Positions 2,110 to 47,347 of a stretch of DNA of 52,095 nt are shown here, one piece after another (position 1 is the first letter of the stretch; each line of letters starts with the position of its first letter). The DNA is from Octadecabacter sp. (GTDB lineage: Bacteria > Pseudomonadota > Alphaproteobacteria > Rhodobacterales > Rhodobacteraceae): positions 1 to 52,095 of the forward strand of contig JAPKAD010000014.1 in the NCBI GenBank assembly GCA_028825445.1. Direction: 5' to 3'. A program made the translations under genes and the position numbers. Below the pieces are notes generated by a model. That model was not told where the DNA came from and ran no database searches. It was given only the letters and a program-made list of their open reading frames with translations.

Positions 2110-2895
2110 GGGCTTTGTTGCACAAATGAGCTGATGGGTGTCACTGTATGAATCCAGCGTGATAGCTGAGGGCGATGAGCAGTTGGGCCGCTACGAAGTA
2201 CAAGACCAAGAATTGGTCATCTTACAATGACAGCTTGAAGCAGCGTGGATCGTTGTCGATCTGGTTTGATCCAAAGATGGTTTGGACGCCACCGCCAAGC
2301 GGCAAGTGAGGTGGCAACAGCAATTCAGTGATGCCGCCATTCAGACCTGCTTGACGCTGAAAGTCCTGTTTGGCCTGCCGCTTCGGCAGACAACTGGGTT
2401 CGTCCAAAGCCTGCTGCGACTGGTCGGGCTGGATTGGGCAGCACCGGATTTCAGCACCTTATGTCGACGTCAGAAAACACTGAACGTGAGCCTACCGTAT
2501 CGCGGCTCCAAGGGGCCACTAAATCTCCTCATCGACAGCACGGGGATCAAAGCCGAGGGTGAAGGCGAGTGGAACGCGCGCAAGCACGGAGGCTCCAAAC
2601 GCCGCGTCTGGCGTAAGATACACATTGGCATCGACGAGGAAACGCTTGAAGTGCGGGCGGTCGAAGTCACGGGTAGCAACATCAGTGACGCACCCATGTT
2701 ACCCGAACTTCTTAACCAAATCCCATCCGGTCAGGACATCGGCAGCGTTACTGCGAATGGGGCGTATGACACCCATAAATGTCATTAGGCGATTGCTGCC
2801 AGAGGTGCCCACGCGGTGATCCCACCAAGTAAGAATGCAAAATCCTAGAAGCCGATGAGCAACAGAGCGATCGCCCGTAACGATGCAGTTTCTGA
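2110..2895 (+). mobile_element. IS5-family insertion sequence remnant
   Basis: The left end carries GGGCTTTGTTGCACAAA at 2110-2126, the characteristic terminal sequence of many IS5-family elements. The transposase frame follows and loses similarity around 2890 where another sequence takes over, so the right end appears to be gone. The element is inactive: its transposase has a frameshift and stops. Confidence 0.8.
2175..2890 (+). pseudogene. IS5-family DDE transposase, frameshifted and interrupted
   Basis: The frame opens at ATG 2175 (MSSWAATKYKTKNW) and reads to PPPSGK, then meets TGA at about 2306. The homologous protein continues one base out of register from QQQFSDAAIQTCL, consistent with a one-base deletion. 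The middle is well preserved, including IDSTGIK, GEWNARKHG and WRKIHIGID around the first catalytic Asp. At TAG 2786-2788 a stop replaces the residue after KCH; the same frame continues as AIAARGAHAVIPP and meets a second TAG near 2848. Similarity ends after ARNDAV. At least three disabling changes mean no active transposase is made. The continuous piece at 2282-2788 encodes up to 168 residues. Confidence 0.85.
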
Positions 2896-3106
2896 CATAA
2901 CGACAGCCCTATCTAAAATTGAGCAACAACACTCACGCCAGCAGCCGTACCGCGCGCACCTGCTCAGGCATCACCAGCCTCAATGTGATCACGTCCTCAA
3001 ACTGTCGATTGGTTATATGACGGCACATGGGATGGCGCTCATGGATTCAGCTGGCGAGCCGGGTACGGCCTTTGGCTTCAACCTCACAAGCCTTTTCGCG
3101 GTCGGC

Positions 3107-3646
3107 CTATATCTGAGCAAGCCCCTTCTCCCACCGACGCATCTTGACCCAATTGTCCGAGAAACAGATCTTACTGCGCGTGTAACCTTCGGTCTCTGCA
3201 GCATGGGTTTTGACTGCCTTTAGCAGAACATCGGGCGCAACGCCTGCCTTCCCCACAGTCTGCTCTGTGATTTTGGCAATTCGCCCGGAAAAATAGTTTG
3301 GGGTATATGGAACTCCGCGGTCCCCCACCCAAAACCAGTCATGGTCTTCACTCGCTTTAGCCAACAGTTTCGGACGAACGTCTTCAACATAATCCCGCAT
3401 AAGCTGTGCGATGCAGTCTGGCACCGTGGTCTCCCAAGGCAAACCCGTTTTTGTCATATCCCTGGACAGGGTGATGTGGATGCGGTCAGGCAGAAAGCAA
3501 ATGGAGTCATCAATCAGTAAACTGGCCAAAGCACGGCACCTGATCGGCATGAGAGCCAGAAAGGCGATGAGGGTTTCGTCACGACGCCGCTTCAACATTT
3601 TCGGTAGTGTCTCGCCTGTCTCGGGCTCTACAGTCGCAAAGCGCAT
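3107..3646 (-). pseudogene. Tyrosine recombinase (integrase) fragment, box I region only
   Basis: A 179-residue frame. The first 110 residues match the start of the catalytic domain of a tyrosine recombinase: ALMPIRCRALASLLI holds the first conserved Arg, then SRDMTKTGLPWE, DHDWFWVGDRG and YFSGRIAKITEQTVGK. The C-terminal part with HxxR, the second His and the Tyr nucleophile is missing; after TVGK the sequence becomes unrelated and stops at 3107. Upstream a stop lies three codons before the Met, so the N-terminal DNA-binding domain is gone too. I read it as a broken integrase fused to foreign sequence. It faces away from the second integrase remnant at 3719-4195. Confidence 0.7.
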
Positions 3647-3697
3647 GGCCGGCCCCTAACAGATCAACAAATCCATCAGATTATTGAAAACTGCTGA

Positions 3698-4195
3698 GCC
3701 CCGCACGTTCGGCTGGCCGTGATTATGCTTTTGACGACAGGCGGGTGCGTTGGCACGATACTCGACCAGACTTGGGACAAGATCGACTTTGACCGCGGCG
3801 TTATTGATTTGAGGCTAACGGATGGCGTGACCCGCAAGGGCCGTGCAGTCGTGCCAATGAACCACCTGGCACGCACCACACTGCAAGCTGCATATTCAGC
3901 ACGCCAGACGGAATGGGTTGTGGAATACAACGGGGGTCCGATCAAATCGATACGGACGGGGTATTATGCCGCCCTGCGCCACGCTGGACTCACCGGCGTG
4001 CACATTCATCAAATCAAACACACCGTTGCTGTGCGTATGCTTGCTGCGGGCCAGCCTATTGAAAAGGTATCACAATATCTTGGGCACGCAAATGTTTTGA
4101 TAACGTCCAAGACCTACGCCAGATTTGCACCCGATCAAATGGAGGACGCCACGGCGGTTTTGAACTTTGGAATGGTGGGCCCAGAAGGGTCTTAG
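3698..4195 (+). pseudogene. Tyrosine recombinase C-terminal remnant with lost catalytic arginines
   Basis: A stop at 3695 precedes an open frame (first usable start GTG 3719, 158 residues) that matches the catalytic domain of a site-specific recombinase: HVRLAVIMLLTTGG, DLRLTDGVTRKGRAVVPMN, MLAAGQPIEKVSQYLGHAN and TSKTYARFAPD. The Tyr nucleophile (KTYARF) is kept. The first conserved Arg after TTGG is Cys (TGC, one change from CGC). In the HxLRH box the sequence is HQIKH, so the second Arg is Lys. The N-terminal half is missing. Recombination activity is not expected. It ends 53 bases from the 3' end of tRNA-Val, the classic position of an integrase gene of an island inserted in a tRNA. Confidence 0.75.
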
Positions 4196-4376: not shown

Positions 4377-4937
4377 CTATGTTAGCAAGTTTTGCACTCC
4401 ACCTTTTAAATGGTACACACAGCCCTGTCCGCCATGAATGCTTGGGTTGGCTAAAGCACTCGGCCCAATAACAATTTTGCGTATCATGCGGCTAGTAATT
4501 CCGTGGGTAATCAAGACTGCTGGTCCATCCAAATCAGCCAAAAACGCGAAACACCGTGCGGACAAAACCTCTATGCCTTCGCCATTTGGTGCCATTTCGT
4601 ATTGCGCCATATAAGGATCATCACCTTTCCCTTGAGGCAGTTCATCACGCAACCGACCTGCCCAATCGCCAACTCCTATCTCGCGCAAACGTATATCGGT
4701 GTGCACCGCCTCAGCGATCTGCGCACATGCGATGCCTGCAGTCTGTATAGTACGCCCCGAAGGACTGCACCTATACGTAAACCCATTTAAATTATGACTT
4801 ATTAAAATCGCACCTTGGCGTGCAGCATCAGCCTCCCCCTTTGGAGTCAGTGGTGAATTCAGCCAACCTTGCATGCGGTTTTCTACATTCCACGTCGTCT
4901 CTCCATGGCGTAAGATATATAGCTCTGGATAAGTCAT
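4377..4937 (-). CDS. Histidine phosphatase family protein (phosphoglycerate mutase-like)
   Basis: A 186-residue protein starting MTYPELYILRHGETTWN, with the catalytic RHG at residues 10-12 and the second conserved His in LITHGITSRM near the C terminus. These are the marks of the branch-2 histidine phosphatases that go through a phospho-histidine. Its size fits the GpmB/CobC-like small phosphatases, whose substrates vary from 3-phosphoglycerate to nucleotides and alpha-ribazole phosphate, so I do not assign one. The frame is open 28 codons further upstream, but that extension is poor in family features; the ATG at 4937 puts the RHG where it normally lies and has GAGGAA about 12 bases upstream. 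It diverges from the glycine-riboswitch gene. Confidence 0.88.
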   Translation of the reverse strand: MTYPELYILRHGETTWNVENRMQGWLNSPLTPKGEADAARQGAILISHNLNGFTYRCSPSGRTIQTAGIACAQIAEAVHTDIRLREIGVGDWAGRLRDELPQGKGDDPYMAQYEMAPNGEGIEVLSARCFAFLADLDGPAVLITHGITSRMIRKIVIGPSALANPSIHGGQGCVYHLKGGVQNLLT

Positions 4938-5059
4938 ACAAACTACATATTCCTCGTAGTCATTATTGCAAAGCCAAAATAAAAATGCACTTATTGCACT
5001 TCTTGAAAAAACCCATTGCACCGAAGCGCATTTCCCCCCATATCAGAGTTGCATTTCTC

Positions 5060-5230
5060 GCCCGCGGGAGAGATCGGGATTTCCCGGCGCCGAAGGAGCA
5101 ACGACCCGGAAACTCTCAGGCAAACGGACCGCGGATCGTAAGCAATCTGGAGAGTGGTGTTAAAAAACACCCACCGAAGGAGAAGTCATTGTCATATCAA
5201 TGGCGAAACTCTCAGGTACAATGACAGATG
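5060..5230 (+). ncRNA. Tandem glycine riboswitch (two gcvT-type aptamers)
   Basis: Two consecutive aptamers are visible. Aptamer I spans about 5062-5134, closed by CCGCGG/CCGCGG, with the signatures GCCGAAGGAGCAA and GGAAACTCTCAGGCAAA. Aptamer II spans about 5145-5230, closed by ATCTG/CAGAT, with ACCGAAGGAGAA and CGAAACTCTCAGGTACA. A short linker of about 10 bases joins them. This is the standard tandem glycine aptamer layout that usually turns on glycine cleavage genes when glycine is abundant. Here it precedes a single FAD-dependent amino-acid oxidoreductase gene starting at 5286. Confidence 0.95.
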
Positions 5231-5267
5231 GGTTCACTGCTGGCACTAGCCAGCCCGTAACTGAACC
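5231..5267 (+). promoter_or_regulatory. Expression-platform hairpin of the glycine riboswitch
   Basis: Directly after aptamer II, GGTTCA (5231-5236) can pair with TGAACC (5262-5267), with an inner stem CTGGC/GCCAG. No T run follows, and the ribosome binding site AAGGA lies just after it at 5272-5276, so control at translation start is more likely than termination. The exact switching fold is inferred. Confidence 0.5.
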
Positions 5268-5285
5268 AGTTTAAGGACTAACTTA

Positions 5286-6539
5286 ATGAAATCAATTGCC
5301 ATTATTGGTGCCGGAATTACCGGAATTACCACTGCTTATGCTCTGCTTGAACGTGGCTTTGACGTCACTGTCTTTGACCGCAATCGCTATGCTGCAATGG
5401 AAACATCTTTCGCCAACGGCGGGCAACTGAGCGCCTCGAACGCTGAAGTCTGGACACAGTGGGCCACAATAATAAAGGGTATCAAATGGATGGCGTCGCG
5501 CAACGCGCCGTTGCTGGTGAACCCAAGGCCATCTTGGCACAAATATAGCTGGATGGCAGAATTTATGTCCAACATCCCCAACTACCGGAGTAATACGATC
5601 GAATCTGTGCGACTTGCGATCGATGCGCGCCAACACCTGATAAGTCACGCCCAGAAAGAGGGTTTCACATTCGATTGCGAACACCGCGGCATCCTGCACG
5701 TTTATAACTGTAAGGCGGACTTTGATAAAGCTGCCAAAGTCAACGAAATGCTGGCAGAGGGCGGACTTGAACGTCATGCTGTAACCCCAGACGAAATGAA
5801 AGTCATTGAACCAGCTCTAAAAGGTAAATTATATGGCGGCTACTTTACTGAGTCAGATTTCACTGGGGACATTCACAGCTATGCCAAAGGTCTTGGCAAT
5901 GCCTGCAAAAAACGCGGCGTTATTTTTAAATATGGCCGAGATGTTGAAAGCCTGACTACACGAAAAAGTGGTGGAGTTGACGTAGGCTGGACAAACCCAG
6001 AAAATAGCAACGTGTCCGACCACTTCGATGGCATCGTCATTTGTGCAGGCGTGCGCAGCCGCGCCTTGGCCGCACAAGTTGGAGATCGAGTCAACATCTA
6101 CCCCGTCAAAGGCTATTCTATTACTGTTCAACTTGACGATGAAGAAAGCCGCGCGGCAACCCCATGGGTGTCCTTACTCGATGACAAAGCCAAGATCGTC
6201 ACTTCACGCCTCGGTAAGAACCGCTTTCGCGTAGCCGGGACTGCAGAGTTTAACGGTTATAATAAAGACATCCGAGATGATCGGATCGCACCACTGACAA
6301 AATGGGTTGAAAACCTGTTTCCAGATGTCAGTACAGAACACGCTATTCCTTGGGCAGGCCTTCGCCCAATGATGCCCAATATGATGCCACGTGTTGGGCC
6401 GGGCAAAGCCTCGGGTGTGTTTTACAACACTGGCCACGGACACTTAGGCTTTACTTTGGCAGCGGCAACGGCAGAACTTGCAGCCGATAGCGTACTAAAA
6501 GCCTCTCAAAGCAATTCTGTAGGCTCAACAGCGGCTTGA
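5286..6539 (+). CDS. FAD-dependent D-amino-acid dehydrogenase/glycine oxidase-like protein
   Basis: A 417-residue DAO-fold flavoenzyme related to DadA. The N terminus has the dinucleotide-binding motif IIGAGITGITTAYALLERG followed by VFDRN; the FAD domain shows FANGGQLSASN, typical of DadA proteins; the C terminus has PWAGLRPMMPNMMPRVG and NTGHGHLGFTLA, the conserved FAD and substrate segments. DadA oxidises D-amino acids to 2-oxo acids and passes electrons to the membrane quinone pool. The tandem glycine riboswitch suggests the true substrate is glycine, or that the enzyme clears D-amino acids feeding glycine metabolism. The start ATG has AAGGA about 9 bases upstream. It appears monocistronic, followed by a hairpin at 6557 and then a gene-free kilobase. 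Confidence 0.92.
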   Translation: MKSIAIIGAGITGITTAYALLERGFDVTVFDRNRYAAMETSFANGGQLSASNAEVWTQWATIIKGIKWMASRNAPLLVNPRPSWHKYSWMAEFMSNIPNYRSNTIESVRLAIDARQHLISHAQKEGFTFDCEHRGILHVYNCKADFDKAAKVNEMLAEGGLERHAVTPDEMKVIEPALKGKLYGGYFTESDFTGDIHSYAKGLGNACKKRGVIFKYGRDVESLTTRKSGGVDVGWTNPENSNVSDHFDGIVICAGVRSRALAAQVGDRVNIYPVKGYSITVQLDDEESRAATPWVSLLDDKAKIVTSRLGKNRFRVAGTAEFNGYNKDIRDDRIAPLTKWVENLFPDVSTEHAIPWAGLRPMMPNMMPRVGPGKASGVFYNTGHGHLGFTLAAATAELAADSVLKASQSNSVGSTAA

Positions 6540-6556: not shown

Positions 6557-6582
6557 GGGCGTGGCAGTTACTGGCTACGCCC
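6557..6582 (+). terminator. Possible terminator hairpin after the dadA-like gene
   Basis: GGGCGT (6557-6562) pairs with ACGCCC (6577-6582), and the stem can extend by a few weaker pairs. It lies 17 bases after the stop codon. The T run after it is poor, so termination efficiency is uncertain. Confidence 0.5.
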
Positions 6583-43448: not shown

Positions 43449-43902
43449 CCATCCGGCAAGGTTAATTTTTTATTTTGATAAATTTCCAAGTTAACCTGAC
43501 AAAAATATGTTCAGCTTTAAATTATAAATTTTTTTACTCATTATTTATTTAATTGCGGATTACTGTTTAAAAAATTGATATGAAACGACAGTATCAATAA
43601 CAAAGATGCTGCAGCGAAGTCATCACTAAATGTGACTTCGATAATTACGCAATGCGGTATATTATTTATACCTATAATAAAAATTTACCGCTCAAATATT
43701 AACAATCAAACAAAAAAATTCTAAGCCTAGTTTATTTTAGGATACACACCGCTTCAAGAAGTCGCATTTACGCTCACACTTTCAAAGAACCCGCTGCCGC
43801 TAACGAACTACAATCACATTCAGCAAAATGATGAAGATTATTCATTTGCGCGCATGTCATCTCCATGCGAAGCGATTGTATTCTATACTGGAGAAGTCTG
43901 CG
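43449..43902. other. AT-rich leader region upstream of bmt
   Basis: No supported gene. The hairpin CGCATG-TCATCTC-CATGCG at 43851-43869 is the only clear structure. I looked for SAM-II, SAH and cobalamin riboswitch signatures and saw none. Confidence 0.5.
43851..43869 (+). promoter_or_regulatory. Leader hairpin before bmt
   Basis: CGCATG (43851-43856) pairs with CATGCG (43864-43869), 7-base loop, ending 33 bases before the bmt ATG. Possible leader regulation; no known motif is recognised. Confidence 0.35.
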
Positions 43903-44940
43903 ATGTCGTCCACACAAATTAACATCAAGCCAAATATCTTGTCTGAACTGCTTGCAACTCGTGATTGGCTGCTAGCCGATGGTGCAACCGGAACGACATT
44001 GTTCAACATGGGGCTACAATCAGGCGACGCGCCTGAACTTTGGAACCTCGAACATCGTGATCAGATTATAGCACTATACAAAGGCGCAGTAGACGCCGGA
44101 TCAGATATATTTTTAACAAATACATTCGGTGCCAACGCATCACGCCTAAAACTTCATAATATTGAAAATAAAGTACATGAAATCAACAAAGTGGCTGCTG
44201 AAATCGCCCGCGATGTTGCTGATCAATCTGGCCGCAAGGTGGCCGTTGCCGGATGCGTGGGTCCGACAGGTGAGATTATGGCACCATTGGGAGCGCTAGA
44301 CTATACCCGCGCGGTCGAAATGTTTCACGAACAGGCAGAAGGCCTGAAAGTAGGCGGTGCGGACGTGCTATGGTGTGAAACAATTTCAGCAGGCGAGGAA
44401 TTCAAAGCGGCTGCTGAAGCCTTTGCATTGGCAGATATGCCATGGTGCGGCACGATGAGTTTTGACACCGCAGGACGCACGATGATGGGTCTGACCAGCG
44501 CAGAGTTAACTAAACTGGTTAGCAAACTACCAAATCAACCAATTGCGTTTGGCGCAAATTGCGGCGTTGGCGCGTCAGATCTGTTGCGCACCATTCTTGG
44601 ATTTAGGGCTACAGTTCCAAAAAAGCCAATAATTGCCAAAGGAAACGCCGGCATTCCAAAATATGTTGAAGGTCAAATCCACTATGACGGCACACCAGAC
44701 CTGATGGCGGATTACGCCTGTCTGGCACGTAATAGTGGGGCCACAATCATCGGCGGTTGCTGTGGTACGACACCAGAACATTTGCGAGCCATGCGCGTCG
44801 CGCTTGAAACCCGCTCAAGAGACTTAGCGCCAACGTTGGAAACTATTACCTCAGCACTTGGAGGGTTTTCGTCATTATCAGACGGCACAGACGGTGCGGG
44901 ACCTGTGCGCGCACCAAGACACGGGCGCATACGAAGCTAA
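43903..44940 (+). CDS. bmt: Homocysteine S-methyltransferase domain protein (Bmt)
   Basis: A 345-residue homocysteine S-methyltransferase-family protein with the zinc-binding Cys in FGANCGVGASDLL and the Cys pair in IGGCCGTTPEH, plus DGATGTTLFNMGLQSGD at the N terminus. The family is annotated as betaine-homocysteine methyltransferase, but its neighbours are a separate corrinoid protein and DUF1638. In roseobacters a MetH split into homocysteine-binding, corrinoid and pterin-binding proteins has been reported from mutant fitness data, as far as I recall, and this layout matches. So it is either the homocysteine module of a split methionine synthase or a betaine methyltransferase. ATG 43903 is preferred over ATG 43828: GGAG lies before it. 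Confidence 0.88.
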   Translation: MSSTQINIKPNILSELLATRDWLLADGATGTTLFNMGLQSGDAPELWNLEHRDQIIALYKGAVDAGSDIFLTNTFGANASRLKLHNIENKVHEINKVAAEIARDVADQSGRKVAVAGCVGPTGEIMAPLGALDYTRAVEMFHEQAEGLKVGGADVLWCETISAGEEFKAAAEAFALADMPWCGTMSFDTAGRTMMGLTSAELTKLVSKLPNQPIAFGANCGVGASDLLRTILGFRATVPKKPIIAKGNAGIPKYVEGQIHYDGTPDLMADYACLARNSGATIIGGCCGTTPEHLRAMRVALETRSRDLAPTLETITSALGGFSSLSDGTDGAGPVRAPRHGRIRS

Positions 44941-45152
44941 ATATTTATAGTTTCAACATTTTTTTTGATGGCTTAGCAACTTCAAAACAATAGTACCTTG
45001 CAAGCACTATCTCGTCAGATCGCCACATAATGATCAACCGACGTATTCATTTGCAGTCCCGTCGCTGCACGAGCACGCTGTGTCGCAATCGTTCAAGACC
45101 AAATGTACCATTTCGGAGCAAATCAGGGAACATCATATCAAAGGGTTCTGAC

Positions 45153-45857
45153 ATGTCCGACGATCAAGGCGACATCATCCTAAGCGAACTAAACGACGAG
45201 GATCTCGTCGCACAAATGTTTGACGACCTCTACGATGGCTTAAAAGAAGAAATTGAAGAAGCTGTTAATATTCTGTTGTCACGCAAATGGACGCCCTACG
45301 ACATTTTAACCAAAGCACTTGTTGGCGGAATGACGATAGTTGGCCACGATTTCCGGGATGGTATATTGTTTGTCCCAGAAGTCTTGCTTGCAGCTAATGC
45401 GATGAAGGGCGGTATGTTCATCCTAAAACCACTGCTGGCTGAAACTGGCGCGCCCCGTGTTGGCAAAATGGTCATTGGCACAGTCAAGGGAGACATTCAT
45501 GACATCGGCAAAAACCTTGTTTCAATGATGATGGAAGGCGCAGGTTTCGAGGTTGTGGACCTTGGTATTAATAACTCAGTTGAAAAATACCTTGAGGCAA
45601 TCGCGACTGAAGAACCTGACATCCTCGGCATGTCAGCCCTACTCACCACGACAATGCCCTACATGAAGGTCGTTATCGACACGATGATAGAACAAGGCAT
45701 ACGTGACGATTATGTGGTGTTGGTTGGCGGTGCACCCTTAAATGAAGAGTTTGGAAAGGCTATTGGCGCAGACGCGTACTGTCGCGACGCAGCCGTTGCT
45801 GTGGAAACAGCCAAGACATTTATGGCCCGCAAACACAACCAAGGTGCGACTGCATAA
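45153..45857 (+). CDS. Stand-alone corrinoid (B12-binding) methyltransferase protein
   Basis: A 234-residue cobalamin carrier. Residues about 15-95 form the helical cap (LLSRKWTPYDILTKALVGGM, FVPEVLLAANAMKGGM); the Rossmann-like cobalamin domain follows with GTVKGDIHDIGKN, where His116 is the lower axial ligand, then SALLTTTMPYMK and VLVGGAPLNEEFG. It equals the cobalamin modules of MetH and the MtbC/MttC carriers, and shuttles a methyl group between a donor and an acceptor methyltransferase. ATG 45153 (AAAGGG upstream) is chosen over an earlier open start. It follows bmt by 212 bases on the same strand. The methyl-donor protein (pterin-binding) is not in this window. Confidence 0.93.
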   Translation: MSDDQGDIILSELNDEDLVAQMFDDLYDGLKEEIEEAVNILLSRKWTPYDILTKALVGGMTIVGHDFRDGILFVPEVLLAANAMKGGMFILKPLLAETGAPRVGKMVIGTVKGDIHDIGKNLVSMMMEGAGFEVVDLGINNSVEKYLEAIATEEPDILGMSALLTTTMPYMKVVIDTMIEQGIRDDYVVLVGGAPLNEEFGKAIGADAYCRDAAVAVETAKTFMARKHNQGATA

Positions 45858-46699
45858 AACAACTTTTAAAAATTTGATTTTCACTGTGAATGCGAAGATA
45901 TAAACATATACAAATATCTACTATATCGGGTCAAAATTTGTTTATTAGACATAGGTGACGTTGACATTCGCTATGTGTCGCAAAAAGAAGTTGTTTATTA
46001 CTTGGCCGTTTGGCTATCACTTAGTAAAGTTCCATAATACTAAGTAAATTTTATTGTTTGTTTGTTAATAGACCTGGGCCAAACTATTTGATCCAGAACT
46101 TGCGTTAAAACATTGGCCATATAGCTCTGAATAACTTCATTAGCATTGTATTAATATACAAAATGTAACCCTAAAATTTAACAGTACACAATAATCACAT
46201 AAGTTAAAAATGTCTATATCTGTGCGAAACTTAAAAATAAAATTTTACTGAAAAATAATGTTACAAATAAAATAGTTTAGCATATATATCTAAATTTTTA
46301 AATAATTCTTAACTCTTTTAAATTAAAAAATACAACTATCCACAAATCTTGCATTTGCAACTAAGCTCACGAGTAACTCATAATGAATGAAAGACTTTTG
46401 CAGATTTAACAGCGTAAGATCAAAGCCAAGAATAAAATTCTTTTAGAATCTTAACAAGTCAAAAATCCTGATAGCATACTTTCGAAATATTCCCTAGCAA
46501 AACTATTGCGCTTGCCTAAATCGCGATTAAAACCTAGCGCTCACAGTCCAATTTTTTCGATAAGGTACATTGCAGACATTATATTAAAACAACCAAAATG
46601 TCCTGTATAGTATTCATCAAGTCGCCAATCTTCATAAATAATACGAAAATAACCTATACAACTAATATTATAGAAAATGCAAAGCATCGAAGGTCTCCA
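45858..46699. other. AT-rich gap before the DUF1638 gene
   Basis: About 840 bases with no reading frame worth naming, no known RNA and only short T and A runs. The DUF1638 frame is open from 46598, but 46700 is the likely start. Confidence 0.5.
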
Positions 46700-47347
46700 A
46701 TGCCAGATGATAATAACAGCCCAATTACAAATGTGAAACTAACTACCAATGGCTCTGCGAACAAAGGAAAGGGTCAAATTTTACTATTAGCGTGCGGCGC
46801 ATTAGCACGAGAAATTCTTGATCTGATAAAAGCCAACGGCTGGTCACATATGGATTTGCATTGCCTGCCCGCTATTCTACATGTGGATCCAAGAAAAATT
46901 CCAAATGCTGTCGAACAAGCAGTCCTAAAATACCGCGATAACTATGATGAAGTATTTGTTGTTTATGCCGATTGTGGGACTGGCGGTGTGCTACAGCAAC
47001 TTTGTGAAAAGCTTGGTGTCGAAATGGTACAAGGCCCACACTGCTATTCATTCTTTGAAGGCAATGAGGCCTTTGCAGCGCAAGACGAAATTTTCAGTTT
47101 TTACCTTACCGACTTTCTGGTCCGTCAGTTTGATGCCTTTGTGGTCAAACCGTTAGGGTTAGATCGACACCCCGAACTGCGCAAAACGTATTTTGGAAAC
47201 TATAAATCACTTGTTTATCAGGCTCAAACAGATGATCCGGAGCTTACATATTTAGCCAAAAAACATGCAGAACGCCTTGGTTTGGCGTTTGAGCGCCGTC
47301 TAACTGGTTATGGAGATTTAGAGACGACACTTTCTGCAAAGGCGTAA
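46700..47347 (+). CDS. DUF1638 protein
   Basis: A 215-residue protein of the DUF1638 family: ILLLACGALAREILDLIK, LHCLPAILHVDPRKIPNAVE, VYADCGTGGVLQQLCEKLG and VQGPHCYSFFEGNEAF. Conserved Cys residues and a FLVRQFDAFVVKPLGLDRHPELR stretch suggest a metal or corrinoid-linked role. The family is found beside corrinoid methyltransferases in methanogens and roseobacters, so it is probably an accessory factor for the bmt-corrinoid pair, for instance in reactivation or assembly; the reaction is unknown. Start ATG 46700 is chosen because GAAGG precedes it. Confidence 0.88.
   Translation: MPDDNNSPITNVKLTTNGSANKGKGQILLLACGALAREILDLIKANGWSHMDLHCLPAILHVDPRKIPNAVEQAVLKYRDNYDEVFVVYADCGTGGVLQQLCEKLGVEMVQGPHCYSFFEGNEAFAAQDEIFSFYLTDFLVRQFDAFVVKPLGLDRHPELRKTYFGNYKSLVYQAQTDDPELTYLAKKHAERLGLAFERRLTGYGDLETTLSAKA

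Follow-up and report, generated by a model that had tools for sequence, protein, structure and literature searches.

The window, that is, the whole stretch of DNA analysed here (52,095 nucleotides), carries near its beginning a leader with two consecutive glycine riboswitch aptamers, a gene for an FAD-dependent amino-acid oxidoreductase and a hairpin. The features of this locus are as follows.

5055-5141, + strand: glycine riboswitch aptamer 1 (RF00504, 68.9 bits, E 2.4e-12, full model 1-94)
5143-5231, + strand: glycine riboswitch aptamer 2 (RF00504, 55.8 bits, E 7e-9, model 7-88)
5231-5267, + strand: candidate expression-platform stem, GGUUC at 5231-5235 with GAACC at 5263-5267, and an inner hairpin at 5239-5254
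5286-6539, + strand: gene for an FAD-dependent amino-acid oxidoreductase of family NF009074, 417 aa, probable orthologue of the Cupriavidus necator glycine oxidase DadA6
about 6557-6582, + strand: hairpin 3' of the oxidase gene, read in the sequence

The original prediction, made from the sequence alone, had placed two glycine aptamers before a DadA-like gene. This was confirmed with the covariance model of the Rfam glycine family (RF00504), since both aptamers scored above its curated gathering score of 32 bits. One base separates the two aptamers, and 54 nt lie between the end of aptamer 2 and the start of the oxidase gene. A chance match for the riboswitch and the gene was ruled out by the E-values and by the conservation in relatives. 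The hairpin that had been claimed behind the gene is present, but it has no T run and is not among the terminator-like sites listed. Elsewhere in the window, an IS5-family transposase fragment and a tyrosine-recombinase-like fragment lie near a tRNA-Val (2282-4195), and three consecutive genes at 43828-47347 comprise a betaine-homocysteine methyltransferase-like gene (561 bits), a gene for a corrinoid protein near MtgC (below the cut-off) and a third one that matches no NCBIfam model.

No terminator-like site was found between aptamer 2 and the start codon (5232-5285), so that the control is likely to be translational. The candidate stem at 5231-5267 is located just 5' of a purine-rich AAGGA (5273-5277). 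Of the two predicted leader folds, the centroid one contains the outer stem, and the minimum-energy one has only the inner hairpin. Both native aptamers together were displayed by neither of these two folds, and the folding stability of the whole leader was ordinary (z -1.07; 31 of 200 shuffles were as stable or more so). Upstream of the aptamers (4900-5055), the listing of promoter-like sites has no entry on the + strand.

The protein encoded at 5286-6539 is a DAO-fold flavoprotein (Pfam DAO PF01266, 225 bits). It passes NCBIfam NF009074 (PRK12409) with 701.2 bits against a cut-off of 494, over residues 1-407, and the curated NCBIfam name of this family is D-amino acid dehydrogenase. Two other memberships were considered and rejected: the score for the ThiO glycine oxidase TIGR02352 was 127.8 bits (cut-off 250.8), and that for DadA PRK00711 (NF001933) was 328.5 bits (cut-off 383). 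The solved structures that best match the protein by sequence are glycine oxidases, all of them distant, and the DAO fold also takes in sarcosine and dimethylglycine oxidases. The closest protein found, with 95% identity, comes from an Octadecabacter MAG.

The genome from which the window derives (3.2 Mb assembly, 88% complete) has four glycine aptamers, arranged as two tandems. The second tandem is found on contig C48, directly before gcvT-gcvH-gcvP. The earlier remark that glycine cleavage genes are missing thus applies to the neighbourhood of the oxidase gene but not to the genome, and the notion of an organism without glycine cleavage was rejected. Since gcvTHP stands behind a riboswitch of its own, glycine cleavage is separately controlled, and the window unit is additional to it. 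The window gene is the sole NF009074 member over the cut-off found in this genome, which also has a malate synthase, a possible user of glyoxylate.

The conservation of the riboswitch-gene pair was monitored in several samples. The 80 nearest relatives of the gene came from Rhodobacterales (35), Hyphomicrobiales (20), Chromatiales (14), Burkholderiales (6) and other or unplaced groups (5). By the model R1, which was built partly from the 80 loci it scored, an aptamer was detected upstream of the gene in 76 of them, in one case (L022) only weakly; the aptamer alignment left out L012 and one second aptamer. Rfam itself, run on 45 of the 80 loci, detected the aptamer in 41. The aptamer was missed by both R1 and Rfam at L041, L048, L057 and L083, although part of aptamer 2 can still be made out by eye at L041. 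Furthermore, 12 of 100 genomes of the same family (its own included) carry an NF009074 gene over the cut-off, and an aptamer is present directly upstream in all 12. The same held for 200 genomes sampled across the phylum, where 12 genomes, the window included, had a gene over the cut-off and 12 of 12 had an aptamer upstream; in the other 11 of these carriers, Rfam also detected the aptamer in every case. The lower-scoring relatives in the phylum sample had an aptamer in only 1 of 18 cases (L131), and the lesser relatives within the window's own genome in none of seven. Similarly, the aptamer was upstream of the NF009074 member in all five Cupriavidus genomes searched and upstream of none of the seven Cupriavidus paralogues. 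The aptamer association is therefore tied to the NF009074 family, and the riboswitch and the gene form a unit with wide conservation. The conservation in related genomes for which the original prediction had called was thus observed, and the description of the unit as a lone and unusual one is correct within the window only.

Two loci deserve separate mention. In genome G291, a DadA-type gene that scores 318 bits and so misses the NF009074 cut-off is accompanied by an Rfam glycine riboswitch of 55.3 bits (L131/L177:8878-8988, - strand), and it may represent a second subfamily under glycine control. At L022, the oxidase gene is separated from the weak aptamer (Rfam 32.8 bits) by a gcvP-like remnant (L022:3432-4000), as if it had landed behind a decayed gcv leader.

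The form of the riboswitch varied among the relatives. By a motif scan, the core of a second aptamer was found at 54 of the 76 loci with aptamer 1. Twenty of the other 22 loci have by eye a reduced aptamer 2 with little beyond P1, hereafter a ghost aptamer (L017, L021, L025, L026, L028-L038, L043, L046, L049, L054 and L061), and these loci are centred on the Rhodobacterales. The remaining two were L040, whose second aptamer was missed by the scan and detected by Rfam, and the aberrant L022.

Glycine-cleavage genes are turned on by glycine. Glycine riboswitches in general may be ON or OFF switches, and the retention of aptamer 1 beside a ghost aptamer 2 has been tied to the glycine-cleavage context, as stated in passages of PMC6944388. 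Taken together, the form of the ghost-aptamer leaders and the induction of the cleavage genes make it plausible that the oxidase is made only when glycine is high. We also searched 61 leaders for a conserved alternative pairing between the 3' strand of the aptamer 2 P1 and the sequence preceding the ribosome site. The tendency obtained was weak (mean z -0.6), and in 6 of the 61 leaders no more than 5 of 100 shuffles did as well. As this tendency is weak, the ON logic is one that we infer by analogy. Aptamer-1 sequences of oxidase leaders (30 of those known) were compared with those of gcv leaders (21). The nearest neighbour was of the same class for 27/30 and 19/21, respectively; the two classes are loosely separated, with mean identities of 0.73 and 0.77 within classes vs 0.72 between them.

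A link to an enzyme with a name was sought in Cupriavidus necator. In passages of PMC12421819, the C. necator enzyme DadA6 is called a glycine oxidase and an orthologue of ThiO. In PMC11879842, the 'glycine oxidase (delta dadA6)' was deleted in C. necator, which according to its text gave no added growth or yield gain, and the PCR primers are printed. The primers were matched to Cupriavidus genomes, among which C. necator H16 was not identified. The dadA6-rev primer matched at 19 of 20 positions at L162:330 (genome G298), which is upstream of the NF009074 gene by about 1.15 kb, and in two more genomes it matched at 18 of 20, again upstream of the gene but at about 1.2 kb; in the remaining two of the five genomes, no match with five or fewer mismatches was found. 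The dadA6-for primer matched at 20 of 20 positions on contig C166 of G298, which is separate from the gene-bearing contig C170, and C170 ends some 260-310 bases past the gene. No gene-bearing stretch from Cupriavidus had a dadA6-for site with fewer than five mismatches. With two mismatches or fewer, this primer matched in 7 of 60 genomes of the genus, against 2 of 60 for a reversed control. The window protein shares 65% identity over 404 aa with the protein at L162. Since the dadA6-rev site lies beside the orthologue in three of the five Cupriavidus genomes, DadA6 is very probably the NF009074 gene with the riboswitch.

The distribution of gcvP was then related to that of the oxidase gene in the 100-genome family sample. 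A gcvP over the cut-off was present in 4 of the 12 carriers, compared to 85 of the 88 non-carriers (Fisher p 3.9e-7, ignoring relatedness). The genomes without gcvP were accordingly 8 of 12 carriers and 3 of 88 non-carriers; among the eight carriers, completeness was at least 99% in six, and 82% and 84% in the other two. In these eight, all glycine aptamers found under stricter filters precede the oxidase gene. The proposal that the enzyme serves as an alternative to the cleavage system fits these eight genomes, but in the window's own genome both are present. In a poorly resolved Lon tree, for which the 12 carriers and 15 further genomes of the family were chosen (27 in all), the well supported branches forced at least three changes for the gcvP-less carriers and allowed three independent pairs, in which the expected direction occurred 2.5 times and the opposite one 0.1 times on average. 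A sign test on the association was not significant, nor could it be with three pairs, and the number of independent changes behind the gcvP association is small. As a separate observation, the family genomes G019, G077 and G090 have neither gcvP nor NF009074 over the cut-off.

The genes behind the oxidase gene were informative at some loci. The Bhc enzymes convert glyoxylate and glycine into beta-hydroxyaspartate and then into aspartate. In 7 of the 80 loci (L017, L021, L025, L032, L033, L036 and L037), the oxidase gene is followed by bhcB, bhcC and bhcD. At L025, the only one of these loci scanned with the models, bhcB, bhcC and bhcD scored 577.8, 732.8 and 578.7 bits against equivalog cut-offs of 550, 690 and 500, respectively. 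Two further loci have an incomplete bhcB: the sequence of L031 ends within it, and that of L028 is truncated. In all nine loci with any bhcB, the junction is TGATG, in which the stop codon of the oxidase gene overlaps the start of bhcB, and because of this overlap one riboswitch could set the levels of both products. Inspection by eye of the ORFs of L025 and of the 10 kb downstream in L266 revealed neither bhcA nor bhcR. The window itself contained no bhcB, bhcC or bhcD (tblastn with the L025 proteins as queries, 1e-10).

The simplest sense of the bhcBCD operons would be that the oxidase turns glycine into glyoxylate, and that glyoxylate is then joined with glycine to yield aspartate. In the eight gcvP-less carriers, bhcB, bhcC and bhcD were found near the gene in none within the 17.9-20 kb read, and in genome G099 bhcBCD stand beside the gene while gcvP is also present. 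The operons and the absence of gcvP hence do not coincide where both were examined, and they constitute two separate lines of evidence rather than one.

Based on these observations, we consider it probable that the tandem glycine riboswitch drives the oxidation of glycine to glyoxylate, as a route that runs beside glycine cleavage and at times replaces it. Glycine would be bound by the tandem riboswitch in the 5' leader, most likely a translational ON switch, and its binding would permit production of a DadA6-type protein (NF009074), an FAD-dependent oxidase or dehydrogenase acting on glycine. This protein would turn glycine into iminoacetate and further into glyoxylate and ammonia, and the glyoxylate would enter central metabolism, in the window's own genome possibly via malate synthase. 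Such a route would serve both the disposal and the assimilation of glycine beside the glycine cleavage system, and in the many related genomes without gcvP oxidation may be the main route. In the Rhodobacterales-centred subset whose oxidase gene overlaps bhcB and is followed by bhcC and bhcD, glyoxylate would react with a second glycine to give beta-hydroxyaspartate, then iminosuccinate and finally aspartate, a glycine-to-aspartate route in which no CO2 is lost. The oxidation of glycine had been proposed as the job of the enzyme in the original prediction, and this is well supported, albeit indirectly, by the probable orthology with DadA6, the seven bhcBCD operons and the eight of 12 carriers without gcvP.

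If the enzyme were instead a D-amino acid dehydrogenase, acting for example on D-alanine, glycine would not be its main substrate but would signal an amino-acid surplus or cell-wall stress. The NCBIfam name of NF009074 is in line with this, as are the kinship to the PRK00711 DadA (the 328.5 bits above) and the glycine riboswitch before the DadA-type gene of L131/L177 below the NF009074 cut-off. Nevertheless, the coupling with bhcBCD and the absence of gcvP indicate glycine and glyoxylate, and the probable orthologue DadA6 has been named a glycine oxidase, so that we regard a D-amino acid dehydrogenase as improbable. A production of glycine from sarcosine or another N-substituted glycine, with the riboswitch as an OFF switch responding to the product, appears more doubtful still and in our view very improbable. 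Before bhcBCD, such an enzyme would supply the glycine that BhcA usually provides, and in fact the oxidase gene holds the place that bhcA has in the bhc cluster of P. denitrificans (PMC11323563); moreover, sarcosine and dimethylglycine oxidases have the DAO fold as well, and the sign of a glycine riboswitch is compatible with either ON or OFF. However, the best solved sequence relatives are glycine oxidases, the lack of gcvP in most carriers of the family sample would be left unexplained, the kept aptamer 1 resembles that of the glycine-cleavage context (PMC6944388), and what is written of DadA6 in PMC11879842 and PMC12421819 also speaks for glycine as the substrate.

Glycine oxidation could also have a narrower role in the window's own genome, where the unit might mainly clear excess glycine and contribute little carbon. 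This is compatible with the riboswitch-driven oxidation preferred here, and the presence of gcvTHP behind the second tandem riboswitch points in its direction; since it leaves the carriers without gcvP and the bhcBCD operons unexplained, we hold it to be possible but rather unlikely.

In a broader form, riboswitch-controlled glycine oxidation would be widespread in Proteobacteria and independent of cleavage, and would on several occasions have taken over from gcvTHP. Combined with bhcBCD, and with the oxidase standing where bhcA otherwise stands, it would make up a complete pathway that conserves carbon, leads from two glycines to aspartate and is directly controlled by glycine. We put the chance of this wider proposal at slightly better than even. 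If true, a family annotated as D-amino acid dehydrogenase gains a specific job, and glycine oxidation joins the short list of functions under glycine riboswitches. It would also suggest how several Rhodobacteraceae cope with glycine without gcvP, and it predicts a glycine-to-aspartate pathway that may be useful for one- and two-carbon engineering, a field that already knows DadA6 as a side reaction.

The riboswitch class, the C. necator enzyme and the Bhc enzymes are each already known, and their combination was absent from the parts of the literature searched. No report naming the pair of a glycine riboswitch and an NF009074 gene was found in titles, abstract openings and text passages; supplements, such as those of PMC3766115, PMC2211319 and PMC12452182, may list the pair. 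Among the known systems, the RF00504 riboswitch before gcvT(H)P resembles that of the window in its tandem aptamers above the gathering score, its short linker and its leader position, but in the window the gene behind the riboswitch encodes a flavin oxidase and not a component of the cleavage system. In marine Pelagibacter, a glycine riboswitch is described before the malate synthase gene glcB in passages of PMC2211319 and PMC2704228. Both cases concern marine alphaproteobacteria and a step linked to glyoxylate; the gene controlled is a glyoxylate user there and a probable glyoxylate maker here. ThiO shares the DAO fold and probably the reaction with the window protein, which nonetheless lies below the TIGR02352 cut-off (127.8 vs 250.8 bits), and in an excerpt of PMC12452182 thiO of Bacillota is listed under TPP riboswitches. 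C. necator DadA6 is very probably of the same NF009074 family, with the aptamer upstream in five of five Cupriavidus genomes, whereas the passages on it in PMC11879842 and PMC12421819 mention no riboswitch. Finally, according to passages of PMC11323563, BhcR controls the beta-hydroxyaspartate cycle, and the bhc cluster of P. denitrificans begins with bhcA. The seven relatives with bhcB, bhcC and bhcD behind the oxidase gene share these three genes with the bhcABCD/BhcR system; they differ from it in that the oxidase gene occupies the published place of bhcA and a glycine riboswitch heads the operon, and the window differs further in having the riboswitch and the oxidase gene without bhcB, bhcC and bhcD.
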